This document shows positions 3,342 through 17,617 of a stretch of 34,058 nt of DNA, piece after piece. The DNA comes from Acidimicrobiia bacterium (GTDB lineage: Bacteria > Actinomycetota > Acidimicrobiia > Spongiisociales > JAENVV01). The notes under the pieces were generated by a model. It was not told the origin of the DNA, did no database searches, and was given only the letters and a program-made list of their open reading frames with translations. Made by a program: the position numbers and the translations under genes. Positions within the stretch are counted from its first letter, which is position 1; every line of letters starts with the position of its first letter. The DNA is taken from positions 1 through 34,058 of the forward strand of contig JAENVV010000286.1 in the NCBI GenBank assembly GCA_016650365.1. The letters are read 5' to 3'.

Positions 3342-4420
3342 CCGGGAGCCAACCGACCGTGACCGAACCGGCACTCGCCCGATTGTCAGTCGTTGATCGT
3401 TTCCTGCCGGTCTGGATCATCGTGGCGATGATCCTCGGACTTGGTCTGGGCAGGGTCTTTCCTGATCTCAACGACTGGCTCGACACCGTCAAGATCGGAT
3501 CAGTTTCGTTGCCGATTGCGGTGGGACTGCTCGTCATGATGTATCCGGTGCTGGCGAAGGTCCGCTATTCGCAGATGGGTGAGATCGCCACCGACAGGAA
3601 ACTGATAGCTACTTCGTTGATACTCAACTGGGTGGTTGGTCCGGCCCTGATGTTTTCGCTGGCGTGGCTGATGCTGCCCGATCTGCCACAGTATCGGACG
3701 GGGCTCATCATTATCGGGCTGGCCCGGTGTATCGCCATGGTGCTTATCTGGAACGATCTGGCGTGCGGGGATCGAGAAGCCGCTGCGGTGCTTGTGGCAC
3801 TCAACTCGGTCTTTCAAGTCGTCGCGTATTCGGTATTGGGCTACTTCTACCTTGAGCTCTTACCGAACTGGCTGGGACTTGAGAGTGCCGCGTTGAATGT
3901 GTCGATGTGGGAAATTGCCAAGATCGTCCTCGTGTTCCTGGGGATTCCGCTGGCAGGTGGATATTTCACCCGCCGTTGGGGGGAACGTAGCCGTGGCGTT
4001 GAGTGGTATGAGGGAAGGTTCCTTCCCAAACTCGCCCCCTGGGCGCTCTACGGGCTCCTCTTTACCGTCGTGATCCTCTTCGCTCTCCAGGGCGAGACCA
4101 TCACCGCTCAACCTCTCGATGTGGCGCGCATCGCCCTTCCGCTTCTCGCCTATTTCGGGTTGATGTGGACCGTGGCGTTCGCACTAGGTCTGCGTTTGCA
4201 TCTGCCGTACGAGAAGAACGCCAGCGTTGCGTTCACCGCGGCGAGCAACAACTTTGAACTAGCGATTGCGGTAGCCATCGGTGTGTTTGGTGTTACGTCG
4301 GGTGAAGCGCTGGCCGGTGTGGTTGGTCCACTCATCGAGGTGCCGGTCTTGGTCGGTCTTGTATATGTTGCGCTGTGGGCGAGGAAACGGTTTTACGTCG
4401 ACCCCGCGGTTGCGGGGTAG
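3338..4420 (+). CDS. arsB: ACR3-family arsenite efflux permease
   Basis: This 360-residue, roughly ten-helix membrane protein exports arsenite (and often antimonite) using the membrane potential or proton gradient. ACR3 hallmarks are visible: VGLLVMMYPVLAKVRY near the N-terminus, GLARCIAMVLIWNDLACGD carrying the conserved membrane cysteine needed for transport, NSVFQVVAYSVLGYF, and the late ASNNFELAIAVAIGVFG segment. The GTG start at 3338 gives the usual family length and has a GGGG stretch just upstream. The gene stands alone: no arsR, arsC or arsM lies beside it in the window, so resistance may rely on reductase and regulator genes elsewhere. The symbol arsB follows loose usage; acr3 is equally correct. 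Confidence 0.93.
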   Translation: MTGSQPTVTEPALARLSVVDRFLPVWIIVAMILGLGLGRVFPDLNDWLDTVKIGSVSLPIAVGLLVMMYPVLAKVRYSQMGEIATDRKLIATSLILNWVVGPALMFSLAWLMLPDLPQYRTGLIIIGLARCIAMVLIWNDLACGDREAAAVLVALNSVFQVVAYSVLGYFYLELLPNWLGLESAALNVSMWEIAKIVLVFLGIPLAGGYFTRRWGERSRGVEWYEGRFLPKLAPWALYGLLFTVVILFALQGETITAQPLDVARIALPLLAYFGLMWTVAFALGLRLHLPYEKNASVAFTAASNNFELAIAVAIGVFGVTSGEALAGVVGPLIEVPVLVGLVYVALWARKRFYVDPAVAG

Positions 4421-4449
4421 AGGTTGGATCGGTGACCGCCGGGGCGGTC
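4402..4449. terminator. Two tandem hairpins between convergent genes
   Basis: CCCCGC-GGTT-GCGGGG (4402-4417) ends at the stop codon of the ACR3 gene. It is followed by GACCGC-CGGG-GCGGTC (4434-4449). Both are GC-rich stems with four-base loops, placed between the convergent ACR3 and cyclotransferase-like genes. They are likely a bidirectional terminator, although neither has a strong T-run. Confidence 0.5.
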
Positions 4450-4460
4450 GGATAGGGCAA

Positions 4461-4922
4461 CTACGCCGGGTTGTCCATGTGTTCTTCGAGTCCGGCAATC
4501 CAGCCGGTTGGCAGCTTCCAATGCCGGGCACCCAGAACGATCTGGCCCATGTACTTCTTCGAGGGATGGGCCACGCGATCGGAGCTATCCGCATGGACGT
4601 GGGTAACGACGCTGTGACGCTTGCCTTCGCGATCGACCGCCTTGAAGTCGTAGGTGATCGACCGCAGCTCTTCGAGTTCCGCTGCGCTGATCGCTTCGAG
4701 GTCCTGATCGCTTACCGCGAACATCGCCCCCCAGACCGTGTTCCCCGGCTCGGGACGAACCGATGGCAGAGCGCCGGCCCCAACTTCGAGTTCGAACGGA
4801 AAGATAAGTTTGGTTTCAGGGAGGTGGGCAATGAACTGGAACTCGGCTCCAGGTGCTACGTCCCTGAGACGATATGGCGACATGAGCGCCGTATATGAGA
4901 AGTACAGGGTCGTATCAGACAC
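4461..4922 (-). CDS. Gamma-glutamylcyclotransferase-like (GGCT/AIG2 fold) protein
   Basis: This 153-residue protein matches the GGCT/AIG2-like layout: an N-terminal beta strand with YFSYTALMSPYRL in place of the family YFAYGSNM..RL, a LIFPFELEVGAGALPSVRPEPGNTVWGAMFAVSDQDLEAI core (given here only as its key run VWGAMFAVSDQDLEAI), an acidic AAELEEL segment where the catalytic Glu usually sits, and a C-terminal YMGQIVLGARHWKLPTGWI. I chose the GTG at 4922, preceded by AGAAAGGAA, because family members begin just before the YFxY strand; an ATG at 4991 would add 23 residues. Loss of the G-S-N of the substrate loop suggests altered specificity. Cyclotransferase activity is not certain. Confidence 0.6.
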   Translation of the reverse strand: MSDTTLYFSYTALMSPYRLRDVAPGAEFQFIAHLPETKLIFPFELEVGAGALPSVRPEPGNTVWGAMFAVSDQDLEAISAAELEELRSITYDFKAVDREGKRHSVVTHVHADSSDRVAHPSKKYMGQIVLGARHWKLPTGWIAGLEEHMDNPA

Positions 4923-5300
4923 CGCGGCGAGTTCCTTTCTGTAATTCGTGAGATCTTGCCGTCCTATGGTAGTGCCACTGCCGGTGAACACCGAAACTGT
5001 GATCGAATCGTTTCCGGGGTAGTTCCGTCAGAGGTCCATATGGCGACAAGGTGTCACCCCGGATGACCATTCAACCGCAACTCTGGATCATCGCCGAGCC
5101 ACCCTCTTCGGGGCCACCGAACGATGGGGAGTTCGGGGTGGGATCACCCGACGATGGCGTCGGAAATCGTTCCGGACGGGCCGGCGCGGCTGGCTTGACC
5201 CTCACCGGTCTCCTTGGTGCGCCAGCCGGGAGTCAGTCCGCAAGTGCGGGTCCGGCGACTACGATGCGCGCAACATCCAAGTAGCCCGGAGATCGATGTT
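4923..5300. other. Intergenic region, 378 bases, between divergent genes
   Basis: This region separates the minus-strand cyclotransferase-like gene from trpD and should contain both promoters. A TACGAT -10-like hexamer lies at 5262-5267, but no good -35 is visible. A short frame at 5051-5284 would encode a Gly/Ser/Pro-rich, low-complexity peptide with no recognisable domain. I see no leader peptide rich in Trp codons, no riboswitch and no strong terminator. Confidence 0.5.
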
Positions 5301-6320
5301 ATGCAGTGGTCAAGCACGCTCAAACCGCTTTCAGAGGGCGCCGACCTGACGAGAGATCAGGCCCATGGAGCGATGACCGAGATCATGTCGGGCAGGGCGA
5401 CCCCCGCTCAGATTGCGGCATTCATCGTCGCCATCCGGATAAAGGGTGAAACGACCGACGAGCTAACGGGTCTGGTCGAGGCGATGCGCGAAGCCTCCAT
5501 TCGCGTGACGATAGACCGCCCGGTGCTCGACATCGTTGGCACCGGCGGAGATGGATTCGGGACGTTCAATATTTCGACCACGGCATCGTTTATTGCGGCA
5601 GGAGCGGGCTGCACGGTGGCCAAGCACGGTAATCGGTCGGCTTCTTCGAAGTGCGGATCAGCTGATGTTCTCGAAGCCCTTGGCATGGTCATAGACCTCG
5701 AGCCGGCCATGACGGTGCAAATTATCGAACAAGAGGGGTTCGGTTTCTTTTTCGCCCGGAACTACCACCCGGCCATGCGGCACGCCGGCCCTGTGCGATC
5801 GGAACTCGGGATTCCGACGGTATTCAATTTTCTCGGCCCGATGACCAACCCTGCCACGGCCCAACACCTGGCACTCGGAGTGGCCGACCCACAAATGGCC
5901 GAGAAGATGATCGGTGTGCTGGCCAACCTTGGTGCGGTCAGGGCTTTTGCGTTCTATGGCGACGACGGTCTCGACGAGTTGTCGACGATCGGTCCCTCGA
6001 CGTTATTTGAGCTCAACGGTGGCGTTATCAAGAAGTCAACCTTCGAGCCGGCCGATCATGGACTCAGGCGGGCGAAGCTGGAGGACCTTCTGGGTGGTGA
6101 CGCGGCCGATAACGTCACGATTCTGAGAAGCGTGCTGGCTGGCGAGGCCGGACCCCGGCGAGACATTGCGGTCCTCAATGCGGCGGCCGGGATCGCGGCG
6201 TCCGGCAAAGCTCCTTCGATTGCCGATGGGATTCCGCTTGCCGAAGCCTCCATTGATTCGGGGGCTGCTGAAAACGTGCTCCAAAGGGTTATCAACCTCA
6301 GCCAAGAGATGGATCGGTAA
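5301..6320 (+). CDS. trpD: Anthranilate phosphoribosyltransferase
   Basis: This enzyme transfers the phosphoribosyl group of PRPP to anthranilate, the second committed step of tryptophan synthesis. The 339-residue length is typical. Family motifs are present: the PRPP-binding glycine loop GTGGDG (residues 80-85), NIST (90-93), KHGNRS (108-113), the metal-binding region GDDGLDELS, and the N-terminal helical domain with SGRATPAQIAAFIVAIRIKG. The ATG at 5301 is preferred over an upstream GTG at 5214 because it matches the family N-terminus and has GGAG about 10 bases upstream. No other trp gene is nearby. Its stop overlaps the start of the Fur-family gene by one base (TAATG), so the two are cotranscribed. 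Confidence 0.96.
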   Translation: MQWSSTLKPLSEGADLTRDQAHGAMTEIMSGRATPAQIAAFIVAIRIKGETTDELTGLVEAMREASIRVTIDRPVLDIVGTGGDGFGTFNISTTASFIAAGAGCTVAKHGNRSASSKCGSADVLEALGMVIDLEPAMTVQIIEQEGFGFFFARNYHPAMRHAGPVRSELGIPTVFNFLGPMTNPATAQHLALGVADPQMAEKMIGVLANLGAVRAFAFYGDDGLDELSTIGPSTLFELNGGVIKKSTFEPADHGLRRAKLEDLLGGDAADNVTILRSVLAGEAGPRRDIAVLNAAAGIAASGKAPSIADGIPLAEASIDSGAAENVLQRVINLSQEMDR

Positions 6321-6766
6321 TGCACGTCGCCGCCGATGACCTGATCGCAGTCTTACGGGCAGAGGGCCTCCGGGTAACCGCCGCCCGTCAGGCGATTTGC
6401 CAGGTCATTGCCGACGGGCATGACAAACATTTGACCTCGGCGGGGGTGCACGATGAGGCCCAGAAAATCGCCAAACAGGCCATCAACCCCTCGACGGTCT
6501 ATCGGACGCTCGAGGTCTTCGAACGGCTGGGGATTGCCCATCATGTCCATCTCGGGCACGGACCGGGCGTTATCCACCTGAGTGAGTCAGAACCCCATCA
6601 CCACTTGACCTGCGACACGTGTGGCTCCACCATCGACGTGCCTGCCGGAGGGCTGGAGGGGTTCTTCAGGGAACTGCACGCTTCATACGGATTCACCGTC
6701 AACCCATCCCACTTTGCCCTCGGCGGATACTGTCGGGATTGTGAACATTTGGGGAACTCAGGTTGA
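6320..6766 (+). CDS. nur: Fur-family metalloregulator, probably Nur (nickel-responsive)
   Basis: This is a 148-residue DNA-binding repressor of the Fur superfamily. It has an N-terminal winged helix (GLRVTAARQAICQVI; NPSTVYRTLEVFERLG) and a C-terminal dimerisation/metal domain. The structural zinc pairs are CDTC (98, 101) and CRDC (138, 141). The His-rich linker AHHVHLGHG (73-81), the HHH at 93-95 and H131 in SHFALGG resemble the nickel and general metal ligands of actinobacterial Nur. A perfect Nur box (7475-7491) lies upstream of a nickel/cobalt transporter only 0.7 kb away, which supports Nur over Fur or Zur. Its position behind trpD, sharing one base, is unusual and suggests constitutive expression from the trpD promoter. 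Confidence 0.88.
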   Translation: MHVAADDLIAVLRAEGLRVTAARQAICQVIADGHDKHLTSAGVHDEAQKIAKQAINPSTVYRTLEVFERLGIAHHVHLGHGPGVIHLSESEPHHHLTCDTCGSTIDVPAGGLEGFFRELHASYGFTVNPSHFALGGYCRDCEHLGNSG

Positions 6767-6798: not shown

Positions 6799-7437
6799 AT
6801 GAACCGTTCCGCCAACCTTCTCGTCGTGTTCGGCCTTGTGCTGGGAGCCTGTGGCACCGACGTCTCCGTCGGGCTCGGGACCACGGCCACTTCGATCCCG
6901 GGCGCTGCAGGTGCGCCGACCACGAGCGCGGTTACCAGGCCGATCACTGAAACGACGTCAGGCGTCACCGGAGATACAGCTGTATCTCCGGCGGAGCGGG
7001 CACCGTCCGGAGTAGAGGGACCGGTCGCCCCTGACTTTTCACTGGTACTCGCAGACGGTTCGACCTTCACCTTGTCGGAAGGGTCCCGGCCGGTCTACAT
7101 GGTGTTCTGGGCCGAGTGGTGAAGTTCCTGCCAACGGGAGTTACCCGTTATCGACAAAGTTTCCGCTGACTATGCAGACCAGGTGACGTTCCTGGCGGTG
7201 GCGTGGAAGGGATCCTTGCAAGACACGACCGAACGGGCATCCCAACTGCTTCCGTCTGGCAGCGTGTTGTGGGGGTTAGACGCCGAAGAGAAGGTTTTTT
7301 CTGCCTACGGGGTTCCCTATCAACCGGTTTCCGTGCTCATCACCCACGATGGAATCGTGAAGACCTCGTGGGCTGGTGCAGCCGGCGAAGAGGTTCTTCG
7401 GGCGGAACTCGACTCCCTTGTCGAGACGGCCGGATAA
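6799..7437 (+). CDS. TlpA-like thioredoxin-fold lipoprotein, probable selenoprotein (in-frame UGA at 7120)
   Basis: This is a predicted extracytoplasmic thiol-disulfide oxidoreductase. Residues 1-18 form a lipoprotein signal with lipobox LGAC (C18). A Thr/Ala/Ser-rich linker follows to about residue 75, then a thioredoxin fold. The active site reads VFWAEW-UGA-SSCQRELP, where family members have WCxxC, so the UGA stands exactly at the first catalytic Cys (residue 108) with C111 intact. The same frame continues for 104 codons with a normal thioredoxin C-terminal half, including the cis-proline segment YGVPYQPVSVLI. A SECIS-like hairpin lies at 7133-7149. Read as selenocysteine, the protein has 212 residues. 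The alternative is a nonsense mutation of TGC; with no sel genes in view, that cannot be excluded here. Confidence 0.8.
6968..6991. repeat. 24-bp perfect palindrome inside the lipoprotein linker
   Basis: CCGGAGATACAG is followed directly by its reverse complement CTGTATCTCCGG with no spacer. It lies in the low-complexity linker coding region of the TlpA-like lipoprotein, where protein-level constraint is weak. It could be a protein-binding site or a hairpin in the mRNA. Confidence 0.85.
7133..7149 (+). promoter_or_regulatory. SECIS-like hairpin downstream of the in-frame UGA
   Basis: AACGGG-AGTTA-CCCGTT forms a perfect 6-bp stem with a 5-base loop whose second base is G. The loop begins 17 bases after the UGA. 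Bacterial SECIS elements are small hairpins with a G in the first two apical-loop positions, about 16-37 bases after the UGA, so position and form fit. No bulged U is obvious. Confidence 0.6.
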
Positions 7438-7502: not shown

Positions 7503-8459
7503 ATGCATATTCCCGATGGTTTTATTAACGGCACGACGTCGCTTGGGGCGGGAGTAATTGCCGCCGGCGGAGTCGGTGGAGCGCTCCGCCAATCAGCAGC
7601 TCGTCTCAAAGACCGTCAGATCCCTCTGGCAGGACTGGTGGCGGCCTTCGTATTTGTGCTGCAAATGCTCAACTTCCCGGTGCTACCAGGCATGAGCGGC
7701 CATTTACTCGGCGGTGCGCTTGCGGCCATTCTGATGGGTCCATCAGTGGCAGTGGTGGTCGTCTCAGTTGTGATCATTCTCCAGGCTATGTTGTTCGCCG
7801 ATGGCGGAGTCTCGGCACTCGGCCTAAACCTGATCAACATGGCCGTGGTTACGACGCTGAGTGGTTGGTTCATGTTCCGATTGGTCCGGGCCCCGTTCCG
7901 GGCGTCCCGGCGGGCAGTTCTCGGTGCTTCATTTGTGGCGGCGACCCTGTCCGTGGTGGTGTCCGCAGTTATGTTTGTCGTCGAATACGCCATCGGTGGG
8001 GTCGGTGGAGTCAACCTTTTCAATGTATTGTTGCTCATGGCTGGCTCCCATCTCCTGATCGGCATCGGCGAGGGCTTCATAACAGTGGCGGTCGTCGGGG
8101 CGGTCCTTCAGGCCCGACCCGATCTGGTATTTGGAGCGAGCGACCTGACAGCCGAAGGTGGTCCCCGGCTGCCCATGAAACGATTTTGGATACTCGCCGG
8201 CGTCGCTGCGGCGATTCTGGTGTCACTTACCGTCTTCGCTTCCTCGAACCCCGACGGGTTGCAGTGGGTGGCCGAGCAAACCGGGTTTGCACAAGGAGCT
8301 CAGGGAAGTTTGACCGCCACCTCCCCGTTGTCGAACTACGGGGCAGCCGGTCTTTCTGCTGGAGCTGGCAGGATTGTGGCTGCTGCGGTGGGCATGGTTG
8401 TGACGTTTCTTCTCGGCTGGGTTACGTTCACCATATTGCGACGCAGGTCACCGGTATGA
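7503..8459 (+). CDS. cbiM: ECF transporter substrate-specific subunit CbiM/NikM fused to NikN-like domain
   Basis: This is the S component of a nickel/cobalt energy-coupling factor transporter. It opens with MHIPDGF, in which the free N-terminus and His2 coordinate the metal, so the start is certain. LPGMSGHLLGGALAAILMGP (residues 62-80) and GGVSALGLNLINMAV are CbiM hallmarks. After six to seven membrane helices, the C-terminal third (from about 225) adds a helix, the extracytoplasmic PDGLQWVAEQTGF (250-262) and a last helix. This corresponds to the separate CbiN/NikN (PDGLE) subunit, so the protein is an M-N fusion. The Nur box upstream argues for nickel rather than cobalt. Its stop overlaps the next start (ATGA). 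Confidence 0.93.
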   Translation: MHIPDGFINGTTSLGAGVIAAGGVGGALRQSAARLKDRQIPLAGLVAAFVFVLQMLNFPVLPGMSGHLLGGALAAILMGPSVAVVVVSVVIILQAMLFADGGVSALGLNLINMAVVTTLSGWFMFRLVRAPFRASRRAVLGASFVAATLSVVVSAVMFVVEYAIGGVGGVNLFNVLLLMAGSHLLIGIGEGFITVAVVGAVLQARPDLVFGASDLTAEGGPRLPMKRFWILAGVAAAILVSLTVFASSNPDGLQWVAEQTGFAQGAQGSLTATSPLSNYGAAGLSAGAGRIVAAAVGMVVTFLLGWVTFTILRRRSPV

Positions 8460-11383: not shown

Positions 11384-11968
11384 TCAATCGTTTGGTGAGC
11401 CCTGCGGCGTGCCGGTCTCGGTTACACCGATGGTGTTGCCGGCTTTGATGTCTTCGATGATGCCCAGGATGAGTCCAAGATTGGCCGGGCCGGTGATCTT
11501 GGCAACGACGACCCCGGATTCATCCAGGAAGAACGTCTCCGGTACCCCAAACAGTCCGTATTCGATGGCGGCGAAGCCCGGTTCGTCAAACAGGTACTCG
11601 GCGGAACTGGCGCGCCCGAGTTCGTCGAGAAAGGCATTGGCGTCGGCTGGCGTATCAAGGTAGGTGATTCCGATGAGCTTGACATCGTCGGCCAACGTGT
11701 TCGCAGCCGCCGTGAGTTCGGGATGTTCCAGCCGACACTCGATGCACCACGACGCAAAGAAGTTCACCATGACGATCTTTCCGCGGTAATCAGCCAGGTT
11801 GATCTGACCGGCCCCGTCGAGTCGGGGAAGGTCGAATCCAGGTGCAGGCTGATTGATGAGCGGCGAGGATGAAACACGAGGTTCGGTATCTGCCAGGTTC
11901 ACCGCCAGAACGATCACCCCGGCAAGCAGGACCAATACACCAAGCCAGGCGATCCGGGAGGTTTTCAT
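11384..11968 (-). CDS. ccmG: CcmG/DsbE-type thiol:disulfide oxidoreductase of cytochrome c maturation
   Basis: This 194-residue protein is anchored by one N-terminal helix (about residues 7-25) with a thioredoxin fold outside the membrane. It reduces the haem-binding CxxC of apocytochrome c or of CcmH before haem attachment. The active site is FFASWCIECRLEHPEL, and GVPETFFLDESG is the cis-proline signature typical of CcmG rather than general TlpA. The C-terminal tail after about 175 is polar and probably disordered. It is the last gene of the ccm operon, and its start overlaps the stop of the TPR gene by 4 bases (ATGA). Confidence 0.9.
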   Translation of the reverse strand: MKTSRIAWLGVLVLLAGVIVLAVNLADTEPRVSSSPLINQPAPGFDLPRLDGAGQINLADYRGKIVMVNFFASWCIECRLEHPELTAAANTLADDVKLIGITYLDTPADANAFLDELGRASSAEYLFDEPGFAAIEYGLFGVPETFFLDESGVVVAKITGPANLGLILGIIEDIKAGNTIGVTETGTPQGSPND

Positions 11969-12711
11969 GAGCCGTCCTCAAGGGCGGCGATGGCGTTCGT
12001 GACCACGGAGCGGACGTCATCGGGCAAGTCCGGGCTGTCAGAGACCAATCGTAGGTCAGCCAGTGCCTCGTCGGTCCGGCCGAGTCGGGCATACACCAGG
12101 CCCCGGAAATAGTTGGCTTCGAGGTTGGCGGGGTTGGCTTCCAGGGCCAGGTCCTCGAAGCGCAGCGCGGTGTCGGGCTCGCCCGACTCGAGGATCATCC
12201 AGCCGATCCGAGCAAGAGCTTCAGACTCGTCGGCCGGAGCAGGTCCGGAATCGAGCACAACCTGGAACCACGTCAAAGCATCTGAGTATTCGCTCGCTTC
12301 GAAGTATCGCTCTGCCAGTGCCAGGCGCATACGGTTGACCTCGGGTATGTCAGGGTTGGCGTTGATCACTTCGATCATTTGCTCGTTACCGATGGTGGCA
12401 AGATCGACCTGACGATCGGGTCCAGAAAAAGCGTCGGGTTCCCTCCCGACCAAAGCACCACTGGCAGCCCAGGTGATTCCGGCGAAGGCGACGGCGAGTA
12501 TGACCGCTCCTACCATCAACCGGCTCCGAGAACGCGGCAAAGTTGAGGCCGGGTCTACCTGATCCTCAGCACCCTGTAGTCGGGCGATCTCGGCTTTGTA
12601 GGTGTCGGTGAGGCGGTTGGCGGTGGCCTCGTCGAGTTCGCCGCTGGCACGTTGTTCCTGGACATCAGCGAGATCTTGTTCAACCTGAAAGAGAAGGTCT
12701 CCCGGATTCAT
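11965..12711 (-). CDS. ccmI: CcmI-like TPR protein of cytochrome c maturation
   Basis: This 248-residue protein has a short N-terminal cytoplasmic region (QVEQDLADVQEQRASGELDEA), one membrane helix near residues 65-85 (VGAVILAVAFAGITWAASGA), and a C-terminal tetratricopeptide region with repeats around AERYFEASEYSDALTWFQVVL, ALARIGWMILESGEPDTALRF (both cited as landmarks only) and GLVYARLGRTDEALADL. CcmI proteins present apocytochrome c to the CcmF/H ligation complex. The ATG at 12711 overlaps the ccmH stop by 4 bases and is preferred over an upstream in-frame ATG at 12792. Sequence identity to classic CcmI is probably low; the role follows from topology and operon position. Confidence 0.82.
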   Translation of the reverse strand: MNPGDLLFQVEQDLADVQEQRASGELDEATANRLTDTYKAEIARLQGAEDQVDPASTLPRSRSRLMVGAVILAVAFAGITWAASGALVGREPDAFSGPDRQVDLATIGNEQMIEVINANPDIPEVNRMRLALAERYFEASEYSDALTWFQVVLDSGPAPADESEALARIGWMILESGEPDTALRFEDLALEANPANLEANYFRGLVYARLGRTDEALADLRLVSDSPDLPDDVRSVVTNAIAALEDGS

Positions 12712-13100
12712 GGCGAGTCTGCCCTGGGGCCTCGTCGGAGGGACCGCATTGCCCAGGCACCGATGAATATGGCCAGCCCGGGGGCCACCCACAACGCCAA
12801 CCCGAGGCCTGATGTGGATGGGTCGATGATGATTTCATCGCCGAAGCTATTCGCCAGGCCATCGAGGATCTGCCGATCACTTTGGCCCTGCGAAATCTCG
12901 GCCGCGATATAGGCGCGAATATTGCGAGCGTAGGCAGACTGGGAGTCGGCAATCGAGTTCTCGCAGACCGGACACGCCACCCGTGAGCTGAGACTCGCCA
13001 AACGGTCGGCGTCGCTTGGGGGGTTCCCCAGCATGCCCCACCCGACGATGGTGGCCAATGCCAACGTGATGACCAGGCGGATCCAACTACGTTTACGCAT
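12708..13100 (-). CDS. ccmH: Cytochrome c maturation protein CcmH (CcmH/CycL family)
   Basis: This 130-residue protein has an N-terminal helix, a periplasm-facing domain with VACPVCENSIADSQS (C43, C46) and a C-terminal helix (LALWVAPGLAIFIGAWAM). This is the short CcmH form, in which the CxxC reduces or holds the apocytochrome cysteines during haem ligation. The IADSxSAxAxxIR stretch after the CxxC and the later FGDEIII segment are family signatures. It overlaps ccmF by 8 bases and ccmI by 4, so production of the three ligation components is tightly linked. Confidence 0.93.
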   Translation of the reverse strand: MRKRSWIRLVITLALATIVGWGMLGNPPSDADRLASLSSRVACPVCENSIADSQSAYARNIRAYIAAEISQGQSDRQILDGLANSFGDEIIIDPSTSGLGLALWVAPGLAIFIGAWAMRSLRRGPRADSP

Positions 13101-15126
13101 CGGCCAGGGCGGGTTCCTTGACCGGGCCGTCCGGTTGCCTCGTCACACGGCGCATGGCGGCCGACCATACCCCACCCATGGCGATCACGAGACCGCCGAG
13201 CCACACCATCCACTGGAGCGGAAACCACCACACATCGGCAGTCATTGAGTCGGCCTGGATGTCGACGGCCGAAACATAAAGATCGCCCGATGGCAACGAC
13301 ATAACGCCCGGGGTAGGAATGAACTGCCCGACTCCGGCAAAGCGATTCAATCGTGGTTCCACCATGCCAATGGTTTGACCATCCTTACTCACAAATACCC
13401 GCGCCCCCAGCACCTCGCGATTCGGTTCTGACCGGCTGAAGGGCGACCGGTATTCGAGTTGGTATCCGGCGAACGTTGTCGATTCACCCACCGCGATCGT
13501 GGTGGTGTCCGTGACACCCAGACCACCTGATCCGGCGATGCCAACCGCCAGGATGAGTACGCCGAGATGGGAAACTTGACCGCCCCAGAAGCCGGGGTCA
13601 CCTTGCAGGACCCGGATCAAGGCCGCTCCCCACGTCAGATCGGTCTTGGCGCGGATTCGTCCGGCCTGGGTGAGCAGGTGTCGGATGATGACGGCGGCCA
13701 CGAATCCGGACAGTGTGAAGGTCAGAATGGGCCAGGCCGCCCGAACGCCAAGGAACACGGCGAGAGCTCCGGTGGCCAGGCCGACCTGCATCGGGGTGCG
13801 AATCCGGCCCCACACCAGGGTCGGGCTGGCTACCCGGTACGGCATAACGGGCCCGATTCCCATCGCCAAAATGAGTCCTAGTGACAGTGGGACCGCGAAT
13901 CGATCGAAGAACGGTGCACTGATGGTCACCGTCTGGTTCGCGAAGGCATCCACGAAGATTGGGAAGATGGTCCCGATCAGGACGACAAACCCGAACACGG
14001 TCAGGAGCAGGTTGTTCGTGAGAAATGCCCCTTCACGGCTTGAGAATGATTCAAGTCGAGGGGAACTTGCCACCAGCTCGGCTCTGGTGGCGAATAATGC
14101 AAACGAGCCGATCACAACCACGGCGAGAAACGCCAGGAGGGCAGGGCCGATAGCCGATTGGGTGAACGAATGCACCGAGGTTATGGCCCCCGATCGGGTC
14201 AAGAACGTACCGAGGATGGTGAGCGAAAAGGTCGAAATGACCAACACGAAGTTCCATGACTGGAGCATGCCGCGCCGGATCTGAACAAACGATGAATGTA
14301 TGAAAGCGGTTGCCATAAGCCAGGGCATGAGCGAAGCGTTCTCAACCGGGTCCCAGGCCCAGTACCCGCCCCAGCCGAGTACCTCGTATGACCACCAACC
14401 ACCCAACAGGATGCCGGTTGTCAGGGCAGACCAGCTGATGAGGGTCCACTGCTTGGTGCGGCGGGCCCATTCGATTCCGGGCAACCGTTGGGCGAGAGCA
14501 GAGATTGCGAAGGCGAACGGAACCGTCATCCCCACATAACCGGTGTACAGGATCGGGGGGTGAACCGCCATCAGAATGTGGTTTTGAAGGAGCGGATTGG
14601 GTCCCCGGCCTTCGATGATGGTCGCCGCACCGGCCCACGGCCAGGGCGAACTTCCCGCACAACTGGTTCCCAAGGCTTCGGTACAGACCGCGAATGGATT
14701 CGCGACGGTCACCATGAGGCCGAAGAAGAACAGAGCGACGATGCCGAGAACCGTGAGGGCGCCGGCCCCCAGCCGGTCTTGTGATCCATCAAACTGGCGA
14801 TGGACGAGCCAGGTGAATACGGCGAGCACCAATCCCCACAAGACGATGCTGCCCTCAAGGGAAGCCCAGGCAGACGCCATCTTGAAGATGGTTGGGGTGG
14901 TCGTTGCCGAGTTGTTCACAATGTACGCAATGGAAAAATTGTCCGTCAGTAACCCGATCTCAAGCGCCACCATCGAAACGATGGCTCCTCCCAGAAGGAA
15001 TCGGGTCCCGGTTCGGTACCAGCCGGGGAGAACCACGCCCCCTGCCAACTGGAAACCGGCTGCGATCAAGAGGATGGCACCGATCAGGGACGTGAGTAGT
15101 CCGACGTCGCCGAGGAGAGCGTTCAT
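13093..15126 (-). CDS. ccmF: Haem lyase CcmF
   Basis: This is the large membrane subunit that ligates haem to apocytochrome c outside the membrane. The 677 residues form about 14-15 helices. The tryptophan-rich haem-handling WWD motif is GWGGYWAWDPVENASLMPWL (251-270). Flanking conserved His candidates lie in MAVHPPILYTGYVGM (H189) and later FLTRSGAITSVHSF. A large outward domain sits near the C-terminus before the last helix, as in other CcmF proteins. It starts inside the end of ccmE (ATGA at 15123-15126). The length and motif order are entirely typical. Confidence 0.97.
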   Translation of the reverse strand: MNALLGDVGLLTSLIGAILLIAAGFQLAGGVVLPGWYRTGTRFLLGGAIVSMVALEIGLLTDNFSIAYIVNNSATTTPTIFKMASAWASLEGSIVLWGLVLAVFTWLVHRQFDGSQDRLGAGALTVLGIVALFFFGLMVTVANPFAVCTEALGTSCAGSSPWPWAGAATIIEGRGPNPLLQNHILMAVHPPILYTGYVGMTVPFAFAISALAQRLPGIEWARRTKQWTLISWSALTTGILLGGWWSYEVLGWGGYWAWDPVENASLMPWLMATAFIHSSFVQIRRGMLQSWNFVLVISTFSLTILGTFLTRSGAITSVHSFTQSAIGPALLAFLAVVVIGSFALFATRAELVASSPRLESFSSREGAFLTNNLLLTVFGFVVLIGTIFPIFVDAFANQTVTISAPFFDRFAVPLSLGLILAMGIGPVMPYRVASPTLVWGRIRTPMQVGLATGALAVFLGVRAAWPILTFTLSGFVAAVIIRHLLTQAGRIRAKTDLTWGAALIRVLQGDPGFWGGQVSHLGVLILAVGIAGSGGLGVTDTTTIAVGESTTFAGYQLEYRSPFSRSEPNREVLGARVFVSKDGQTIGMVEPRLNRFAGVGQFIPTPGVMSLPSGDLYVSAVDIQADSMTADVWWFPLQWMVWLGGLVIAMGGVWSAAMRRVTRQPDGPVKEPALADA

Positions 15127-15521
15127 GGGCTCTCTTGGTAGCCGTCGGGCGCTACGTATTGCTCGTCGTGTCGGATGATGATCTGGGTGGCCCGGAACCG
15201 ATCACCCTCCCAGGTGCCTTCGAGAAGCACCGGCATGTCATCGCCGAATAGCTGCGGAGGGGTTCGATCCGTGACGACTTCTATGAGGGTGCCCCCATCT
15301 GATACCCCAAACGTCGTTTCGTCAGTGGACACGACCGAACCGCTCACGACCCGGCCGCCGAGGCGGAAGACCCGGCCATCCGCGAAGCTGGTTCGCTGGG
15401 CGACAGCCTCGTCGGGGAATAGGTAGTACACCGTGTTCGAAGTCAGGCCGCCGCTGATCAGAAATGCGGCAATAACGCCAATGACTGCTACCGCCGGGAA
15501 AACAAACAGCTTGTTTCTCAT
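15123..15521 (-). CDS. ccmE: Haem chaperone CcmE
   Basis: This 132-residue protein has one N-terminal membrane helix (about 7-24) and an OB-fold domain. It binds haem covalently and carries it from CcmC to CcmF. The haem-binding segment RHDEQYVAPDG contains the His (H118) and Tyr (Y122) of the HxxxY signature. This is the His-type CcmE, not the Cys variant of some archaea and sulfate reducers. VYYLFPDEA and FRLGGRVVSGSV match the family. I chose the ATG at 15521, overlapping the ccmD stop, over an in-frame start at 15665, whose extra 48 residues only read ccmD and ccmC out of frame. Confidence 0.95.
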   Translation of the reverse strand: MRNKLFVFPAVAVIGVIAAFLISGGLTSNTVYYLFPDEAVAQRTSFADGRVFRLGGRVVSGSVVSTDETTFGVSDGGTLIEVVTDRTPPQLFGDDMPVLLEGTWEGDRFRATQIIIRHDEQYVAPDGYQESP

Positions 15522-15628
15522 GAGAGGTCCTTGCGCTGCTTTCGGTCTCGCCAGAACAGGGTTGCGACGTACGCAACCACGGCGACATACGTGATGAGGA
15601 ACGAGGAAAGCACGGAGGGATCGGTCAT
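15518..15628 (-). CDS. ccmD: CcmD-like small membrane protein (36 residues)
   Basis: This short gene between ccmC and ccmE starts MTDPSVLSSFLITYVAVVAY and ends RDRKQRKDLS: one membrane helix followed by a basic cytoplasmic tail. That is the CcmD layout, which stabilises CcmE with CcmABC during release of haem-loaded CcmE. It overlaps ccmC by 4 bases (15625-15628) and ccmE by 4 bases (15518-15521), exactly like the other junctions of the operon, which is the main evidence that it is translated. Very small genes of this kind are easily missed by gene callers. Confidence 0.85.
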   Translation of the reverse strand: MTDPSVLSSFLITYVAVVAYVATLFWRDRKQRKDLS

Positions 15629-16341
15629 GAGCCAGGCTGCAACTTGGGAGGAATGACCGCTGCACCGGCGTTGGGGGTGAGATGTGTCTGCGCCAGGCGA
15701 GCCTCTTCGAAACGAAGTTGATCAGCCCTCCATACCAACAGGCCGAGGTAGAGGATCGTGAAGGCCGCCAGATTGACGAGCATCGAGATCAACGTTTCGG
15801 TCGGCATGCTGGCACCATCGGGCCGCACGGATTGGGTTTGGTGAAGCGTCCGCCAGATATTGACCGAGAAGTAGACGAGGGGGACCTGTAATGCCCCAAT
15901 GGCACCCAATACGGCAGATCGGCGGGCGCGCTGTGTGGGGTCGGGAGTGGCCCGGCGCAACGCCAGGTAGCCGAGATAGACGAAGAACATCATGGCCGTG
16001 CTGGCAAGTCGTGCATCCCCCCAGTCCCAGGCGATGCCCCAGGTCGCTTTGCCCCAGATCATGCCGGTGATGAGCGCCAATCCAGTGAAGAGCACACCGA
16101 CTTCGGCAGACGCAGCAGCAAGATGATCTGCTCTGGCATGCTTGGTGACCAGCCAGGCGATCCCGAAAACGGCCGTCATTCCGAACGCCAGGAACGCCAA
16201 CCAGGCAGTCGGGACGTGCACGCTGATGATCCGAGCGCTTTCTCCCTGTACGGCATCGCCGGGCATCCGGGTAGCCCAGGAGAAGCCATACACCATGCCA
16301 ATGGTCGCCAGGCCGAGAAGGGCGTAGCGAGGCTTCATCAC
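15625..16341 (-). CDS. ccmC: Haem handling protein CcmC
   Basis: This 238-residue, six-helix protein delivers haem to CcmE. The WWD motif is WGKATWGIAWDWGDARL (96-112), and the two conserved haem-ligating histidines are in IISVHVPTAW (H42) and RTLHQT (H167). This order is diagnostic of CcmC. The C-terminus is longer and more polar than usual (about 25 residues after the last helix). ATG 16341 overlaps the ccmB stop (ATGA); a second ATG follows immediately, so the exact first residue is uncertain by one. Confidence 0.96.
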   Translation of the reverse strand: MMKPRYALLGLATIGMVYGFSWATRMPGDAVQGESARIISVHVPTAWLAFLAFGMTAVFGIAWLVTKHARADHLAAASAEVGVLFTGLALITGMIWGKATWGIAWDWGDARLASTAMMFFVYLGYLALRRATPDPTQRARRSAVLGAIGALQVPLVYFSVNIWRTLHQTQSVRPDGASMPTETLISMLVNLAAFTILYLGLLVWRADQLRFEEARLAQTHLTPNAGAAVIPPKLQPGS

Positions 16342-17006
16342 GTCGTCTCCTCAAGTGGTTGGGCTGTCACGACACCGATTACGGCTACCGCGAGTACGAC
16401 CGCGACCATAAACAATGCAGGGATAAGGATACCGTTCTTTGTGCGAATGGATTCCATCCCCTGGGCAGCGGGAACGAGAAGCGGAACGGAGAGCGGGGCG
16501 ACGAGGAGTGGAGCCAACGCCGATCTGGTCCGCAGTGACGCAGTGAGGTCGGCAGCCAGAGTTCCGATGATGGCGAGGCCGGCCGCCGCCAGGATTGCCA
16601 GGGGAGTTACTGCAAGCCAACCCGGGACTGCGGCAGGAGCGAACAAAACGATCATGGTGGGAGCCACTACCAGTTCAAAGCCCAGCAGCAGAATGGCACT
16701 GGCGGCTGCCCGACCGGTGAAGCGGGCGGCGGGATCCGTTCCGAGCATGCGTAGCTGCTCCTTCTGCGCCGATGATTCGGCCGCCGACTGACGAAACGTA
16801 ATGAACATGCCGAAAAGGAGCGTCACCACCCAGAACATGCCCGGTCCGATGGTCGACAGAAGTTCCGTATTCAGCGGGAGTGCCAGCGGTATCAAAAAGA
16901 GAGCCACGAGACCGAACGGAACGGTAATGAACATGGCTTCACCCGAGCGCCCTTCAATTCGCAAGTCTCTACGCAGAATGATCATGGCTTGTTTCCGAAA
17001 CGTCAT
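16338..17006 (-). CDS. ccmB: Cytochrome c maturation ABC permease CcmB
   Basis: This 222-residue protein with six helices is the membrane partner of the ATPase CcmA. CcmAB use ATP to release haem-loaded CcmE from CcmC. Matching features are the amphipathic N-terminus RRDLRIEGRSGEAMFITVPFG (landmark only), the TLLFGMFITFRQSAAESSAQ segment after the second helix, and LAALLLVAPLSVPLLVPA-like late helices. It sits between ccmA and ccmC with 4-base overlaps at both ends, which makes the assignment firm even though the sequence itself is weakly conserved. Confidence 0.92.
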   Translation of the reverse strand: MTFRKQAMIILRRDLRIEGRSGEAMFITVPFGLVALFLIPLALPLNTELLSTIGPGMFWVVTLLFGMFITFRQSAAESSAQKEQLRMLGTDPAARFTGRAAASAILLLGFELVVAPTMIVLFAPAAVPGWLAVTPLAILAAAGLAIIGTLAADLTASLRTRSALAPLLVAPLSVPLLVPAAQGMESIRTKNGILIPALFMVAVVLAVAVIGVVTAQPLEETT

Positions 17007-17617
17007 TTCAGCCGCCCCTCGTTCAATTCGATCGTGCAGCTGGCGAACGTGATCTCGGTGGCGTGCGAAACGATGACACAGGCCCCTTTTCTGCGGATAC
17101 AGCGTTCAACAAGTGCCTCAACCAGGCCGCCGGCAGCCCGGTCAAGGCCGGAGTGGGCTTCATCGAGGAGTAGCACGTCATGATCGACCAGGAGTAGACG
17201 TGCCAGGTCGGCGCGGCGTCTCATCCCCTCGGATGCCTCGCCTGCCCTGCGACTGCGGGCTCCGCTCAGCCCGACTGCCTCCAACGCTTCGTCGACCCGA
17301 TTTTTTGGAACGCCAGCCAGTTTGGCGACCAGGTGAAGGTTCTCGTCAAGCGTCAGATCTTCATACAGAGCCGGGTGGTGGGCGACGAGGCCGACCCGTT
17401 TCCTGGTAGCCGGACCGGGAGCCGCTCCGAACATTGACACCTGACCATTGGTGGGCCTCATCAAACCGGCCATCAATCGCAGGAGAGTTGATTTACCGGC
17501 CCCGTTCGGGCCTCTCAGCCAGGCGACGTCTCCGGGCATCAAGGCCAGCGTGATGTCGGACAGGATCGGAACCCGTCCAATGCGTAGGGAGGCGTCGTTG
17601 ATATCGATGTGTGGCAC
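17003..17617 (-). CDS. ccmA: Cytochrome c maturation ATPase CcmA
   Basis: This 204-residue ABC ATPase is the first gene of the ccm operon. Walker A is GPNGAGKST (36-44), Walker B is VLLLDEAHSGLD and the H-loop is VSHA. The signature is degenerate: EASEGMRRR rather than LSGGQ. VAHHPALYEDLTLDENL is the Q-loop to helical-domain region typical of CcmA. Translation starts at GTG 17617. A TACACT hexamer ends 7 bases before it, indicating a leaderless transcript, so the mRNA probably begins at the start codon. Confidence 0.94.
   Translation of the reverse strand: MPHIDINDASLRIGRVPILSDITLALMPGDVAWLRGPNGAGKSTLLRLMAGLMRPTNGQVSMFGAAPGPATRKRVGLVAHHPALYEDLTLDENLHLVAKLAGVPKNRVDEALEAVGLSGARSRRAGEASEGMRRRADLARLLLVDHDVLLLDEAHSGLDRAAGGLVEALVERCIRRKGACVIVSHATEITFASCTIELNEGRLK

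Follow-up and report, generated by a model that had tools for sequence, protein, structure and literature searches.

The question raised by this locus is whether a reading frame interrupted by a single TGA in an Acidimicrobiia genome represents two small proteins or one protein that contains selenocysteine (Sec). The frame lies in the window, by which we mean the whole stretch of 34,058 nucleotides that was analysed, and read directly it runs from an ATG at 6799 to a TAA at 7435-7437, with one in-frame TGA at 7120-7122. A preliminary description had proposed a probable TlpA-like lipoprotein with a W-UGA-S-S-C motif. The sel genes of the genome, the SECIS hairpin and the UGA or Cys of the relatives support that proposal: this is one gene for one redox protein with a predicted membrane anchor, not two open reading frames, and we regard it as nearly certain that the gene encodes a selenoprotein. 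Its features are as follows.

6799-7437, + strand: selenoprotein gene of 212 aa with a TAA stop, comprising a lipoprotein signal peptide, a Ser/Thr/Pro-rich linker and a thioredoxin fold of the TlpA/ResA type with U108-S-S-C111
6799-6852, + strand: signal peptide and lipobox L15-G16-A17-C18, read directly from the sequence, with a predicted lipidated Cys18
7120-7122, + strand: selenocysteine UGA, which specifies the attacking, N-terminal redox residue of WUxxC, in frame in most copies of the order
7133-7149, + strand: bacterial SECIS hairpin AACGGG-AGUUA-CCCGUU within the coding sequence, with covariation, lost in Cys homologs
7324-7326, + strand: codon of the cis-Pro P176 (motif YQP), which does not vary across the family alignment

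The TGA falls in the same frame on the codon for the first Cys of the thioredoxin WCxxC motif, as the preliminary description had it, so that the motif here reads W-U-S-S-C with Sec at position 108. The same description had the frame continuing to 7437 with the C-terminal half of a thioredoxin and its cis-Pro; in agreement with this, the read-through protein matches the Pfam models Redoxin (1.2e-11) and AhpC-TSA (1.9e-9) over stretches that cover both sides of the TGA. Across the family alignment the invariant positions are W107, U/C108, C111, E114, P116 and P176. The AlphaFold model has a pLDDT of 93-96 over residues 71-210, most of the domain, and its best match among solved structures is ResA (TM 0.92 by target, rmsd 1.2-1.4), the other nearest being DsbF, DsbE/MPT53 and CcmG. 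Alignment, model and structure match thus converge on a thioredoxin fold of the TlpA/ResA type, with WUxxC in place of WCxxC and with the cis-Pro. The signal peptide and the LGAC lipobox, judged by inspection only, predict an exported lipoprotein tethered to the external side of the membrane, and an (A/G)AC lipobox pattern is common to most full-length homologs in the alignment.

Within the window, a frame split by TGA and followed by a hairpin is, taken alone, not rare and a weak sign: 12 TGAs have an open stretch of 100 codons or more on either side, about 7.6% of all TGAs have a comparable hairpin behind them, and the hairpin of this gene folds unremarkably as a single sequence (z = -0.8). 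What lifts the case far above chance is that this TGA sits at the catalytic residue of a thioredoxin-fold domain with significant Pfam matches, and that it recurs there in 93 genomes. A close homolog is found in 98 of the 138 genomes of the order, and 93 of these 98 have the TGA form. Altogether there are 111 copies, 105 with the TGA in frame and six with Cys at this position, and in every sequence that was read through the TGA occupies the identical codon. A comparison of orthologs at residue 108, suggested at the outset as a check, finds either UGA or Cys in the relatives. The related bacteria are uncultured, and those with names are mostly Acidimicrobiia metagenome-assembled genomes (MAGs). 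Decay of the downstream sequence in close relatives was also looked for, and what was found instead is purifying selection, as indicated by dN/dS values 3' of the TGA of 0.33, 0.12, 0.07 and 0.07 against four congeners, the first being the closest and separated by few changes.

The hairpin was found exactly where the preliminary description had placed it, with the spacing and the loop G of a SECIS element. It has a stem of 6 bp and a 5-nt loop, AGUUA, that begins 16 nt past the UGA and has G at its second position followed by U, with a folding energy of -7.8 kcal/mol. In place of a bSECISearch run, we compared it with the published bacterial model, which calls for a stem of 4-16 bp, a loop of 3-9 nt with G in its first two positions, a distance of 16-37 nt after the UGA and an MFE of at most -7.5 kcal/mol (PMC13188914), and it agrees with every one of these values. 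Because the folding energy of the single sequence is uninformative, we turned to covariation. Over 53 distinct sequences, 90% of the cells of the stem are paired, and 23 double-sided changes are seen against a mean of 5.4 in shuffled alignments, none of 500 shuffles reaching as high; when the partner is shifted by 1-3 columns, pairing falls to 37-69%. Compensatory stems occur, for example, in L019 (UACGGG/CCCGUA, z = -2.6) and L086 (CAAGGG/CCCUUG, z = -3.1). The encoded peptide also constrains the bases of the stem, yet in the six Cys homologs, whose peptides are similar, the pairing is lost: their stems are 50% paired, which is the level of the shuffles. Three sequences (L105, L106 and L108) have AACUY loops, in which the usual G is absent.

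The genome itself has the machinery that decoding would need. A search, family by family, of the source assembly (3.49 Mb, 98% complete) recovered all four sel genes whose presence the preliminary description had proposed to check: selA (422 bits) with selB in the adjoining frame on contig C167, a canonical tRNA-Sec (selC) with anticodon UCA (76 bits), and selD (389 bits). This selD (L079, G000:C5:22455-23384) is itself a selenoprotein gene, its own in-frame UGA being residue 11 of the matched stretch. Second tRNA-Sec-like matches of 53-56 bits in several genomes were considered as a variant selC, and the four that were fetched proved to be tRNA-Ser(UGA).

These lines of evidence bear on the two readings in which no selenocysteine is made. 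A true stop, whether in a pseudogene, through a sequencing error or between two small proteins, could draw on the ordinary use of TGA as a stop in this genome and on the 12 frames in the window that are split by TGA. It would have to accommodate a TGA that occupies one and the same codon in 93 genomes, selection acting after it, a covarying SECIS element, Cys replacements at the very site and a full set of sel genes, and we give it next to no weight; conservation and selection rule out the pseudogene, the sequencing error and the two genes alike. A changed genetic code is likewise ruled out, since the adjacent fur gene is terminated by TGA, and TGA is therefore otherwise an ordinary stop here. 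The idea that some other suppressor tRNA inserts cysteine, or a further residue, at the UGA gains something from Cys being the alternative residue at the site; the canonical tRNA-Sec and a SECIS element that covaries and is lost in the Cys forms make this highly improbable, on a search for other suppressor tRNAs that was not exhaustive. On the selenoprotein reading, the UGA at 7120-7122 would be decoded as selenocysteine by SelB and tRNA-Sec, guided by the hairpin at 7133-7149, as the very strong comparative evidence implies. Of the checks put forward in the preliminary description, those carried out all favoured the selenoprotein, and no outcome that it had named as refuting turned up.

The few Cys forms say something about the history of the gene. 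No tRNA-Sec was detected in four of the five genomes that have only the Cys form, compared with 19 of the 93 UGA genomes (74 have it), many of these 19 being incomplete MAGs; Fisher's test of tRNA-Sec against the UGA or Cys form gives p = 0.01, a value that ignores relatedness. In a tree of 73 domains, built on a short alignment and with many inner forks unresolved, the Cys rows are nested in the Sec clade, and parsimony counts four changes, of which well supported branches force at least three. The simplest reading is that the Sec form is apparently ancestral and has been replaced by Cys repeatedly, at least three times. The family would then offer a natural series that combines these replacements, mostly in genomes without detected tRNA-Sec, with the disappearance of the SECIS stem and with a tandem triplication in one genus.

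What the protein does can be approached through its fold and its surroundings, in which the following genes lie.

5214-6320, + strand: trpD, conserved upstream neighbour
6320-6766, + strand: Fur-family regulator, directly upstream, ending in TGA
7503-8459, + strand: cbiM-like cobalt transporter component, the downstream neighbour in some relatives
11384-11968, - strand: ccmG/DsbE-type CxxC oxidoreductase, at the end of a convergent cytochrome c maturation operon
11965-17617, - strand: rest of the ccm operon (TPR protein, ccmF, ccmE, ccmC, ccmB, ccmA)

Together, the last two make up what looks like a complete operon for System I cytochrome c maturation (11384-17617, - strand). In the relatives, trpD lies just upstream, often with fur, and most of those with enough flanking sequence have downstream either the convergent end of a ccm operon (ccmG, TPR, ccmF, ccmE, ccmC, ccmB) or a tlpA-lgt pair; matches to the latter set lie in the window at about 21-22.6 kb. 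Four loci (L103, L111, L130 and L133) have neither nearby. This adjacency is a hint, not proof, of the client, because convergent genes are not co-transcribed and a shared gene order may reflect descent alone. Elsewhere in the genome there are a CcdA/DsbD_TM protein and a DsbB homolog, and a search of the same genome for VKOR found none.

On balance we favour an extracytoplasmic thiol-disulfide reductant that is recharged by CcdA and whose likeliest client is c-type cytochrome maturation, and we consider this statement as a whole somewhat probable. The product would be exported, lipidated at Cys18, as the lipobox predicts, and kept on the external surface of the membrane. There, to judge by the fold, U108 would be the attacking nucleophile on a disulfide, or the acceptor of one, with C111 as the resolving residue, and a membrane protein of the CcdA/DsbD type would probably recharge it. 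Apocytochrome c or CcmG may be its client, alongside the CxxC CcmG encoded nearby, although both client and direction are read from context. A stronger version, in which the Sec-TlpA protein belongs functionally to System I maturation in this order, as a donor of electrons to apocytochrome c or to CcmG, is put forward only tentatively. To our knowledge, System I has been described with cysteine proteins only.

Two other functions of the same selenoprotein compete with this one. It could oxidise or isomerise disulfides outside the cytoplasm, in the way of DsbE and DsbF of Mycobacterium tuberculosis, and be recycled by DsbB, given that MPT53/DsbE (1lu4) and DsbF (3ios) are close in sequence and fold and that the genome has a DsbB homolog. 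The best fold match is nevertheless ResA, a CcdA-type carrier of reductant is present, and Sec in UxxC proteins is usually held to suit reduction, all of which make such a role rather unlikely. It could also serve mainly to reduce peroxides or oxidised extracellular substrates, using its UxxC in the manner of a peroxiredoxin. Sec favours peroxide chemistry, the Pfam matches are to Redoxin and AhpC-TSA, and several relatives have a Fur-family gene upstream; but the same Pfam models also match the nearby CcmG, and both the WUxxC position and the fold are of the thiol-disulfide oxidoreductase type and not of the TxxU peroxiredoxin site, so that we think this function distinctly improbable. Returning to the reductant, the placement of a selenoprotein beside a cytochrome c maturation operon suggests a connection of selenium with c-type cytochromes that can be tested.

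How new is this protein? The preliminary description treated UxxC redox motifs as an established class of bacterial selenoproteins, and rightly so: a 2026 review lists a thiol-disulfide isomerase-like, TlpA-like (cd02966) UxxC selenoprotein together with a Redoxin-family (PF08534) UxxC selenoprotein, the sequences behind these two entries being MGB1650493.1 and HEU0032618.1, and also contains NF041057, the Rcas_1661 family of DsbG-like, thioredoxin-like (seleno)lipoproteins with UxxC (PMC13188914). Our protein shares the TlpA-like domain and UxxC with the cd02966 entry, a domain-level entry compared by description only, and it resembles NF041057 in being a thioredoxin-like, predicted lipoprotein with UxxC; it does not match the NF041057 model at E 0.001, whereas 11 of 31 relatives match it weakly (best 1e-5). 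NF041054, a ResA-like protein with a WAxxUGC motif, is likewise a ResA-like selenoprotein family, but has its Sec in a UGC motif and a longer model (354 positions), on which the window protein, with USSC, reaches 30 bits where the cut-off is 300. Similarly, it reaches 55 bits on the ResA model NF002854, which has its cut-off at 170. Bacillus ResA (1st9) and CcmG (1kng, 2b1k) have the same fold and active-site position, with CxxC instead of UxxC and 18-25% identity; M. tuberculosis DsbE/MPT53 and DsbF share the fold and are extracytoplasmic, as is predicted here, with Cys instead of Sec and 25-28% identity. In ResA, E80 is catalytically important. It lies three residues past C77 (numbers from the PDB title), just as E114 lies three past C111 in the window protein.

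The suggestion that an anchored TlpA-type selenoprotein in this lineage would be new holds in part. The kind is already catalogued, as cd02966 and NF041057, while the clade appears to be order-wide and unmodelled: the window protein scores above the cut-off of no curated NCBIfam model, and standard annotation is therefore expected to truncate it at the UGA. A literature search for selenoprotein together with Acidimicrobi- found nothing on point. The novelty is modest; the Sec form is widespread, in 93 of the 138 genomes of the order searched, and what would be new is the connection that it may have with cytochrome c maturation. In a phylum-wide sample of 396 genomes, close relatives are almost confined to this order.

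Several related genes were seen along the way. In genus g34, three Sec-TlpA genes stand in tandem (L084 at 3621, 4516 and 5649, in G101), each with its own UGA and with hairpin-like sequence behind it, and the triplet pattern is repeated in G066, G093 and G085. The genome of the window also holds a second Sec-TlpA paralog (WUPYC), reduced to a C-terminal remnant of 38 residues (L152, G000:C156, about 4348-4461, - strand). The core with the UGA is absent, and a stretch of about 185 nt upstream is repeated, which may reflect decay or an assembly fault; the paralog keeps its UGA in the sister species G004 (L086) and G003 (L087). Three distant TlpA-like U-x-x-C proteins of family f9 of the class (L093:4169 +, L094:3439 + and L095:3659 -) fall outside the present clade in the tree. 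The hairpin behind their UGA is a different one (CCUC-GGUC-GAGG), predicted in two of the three, and the folding energies of these f9 proteins were uninformative. Finally, a TlpA-like WUTVC protein from another lineage of the phylum (L148:1794, - strand, G262) has a Cys homolog, L146, as its sister in the tree.
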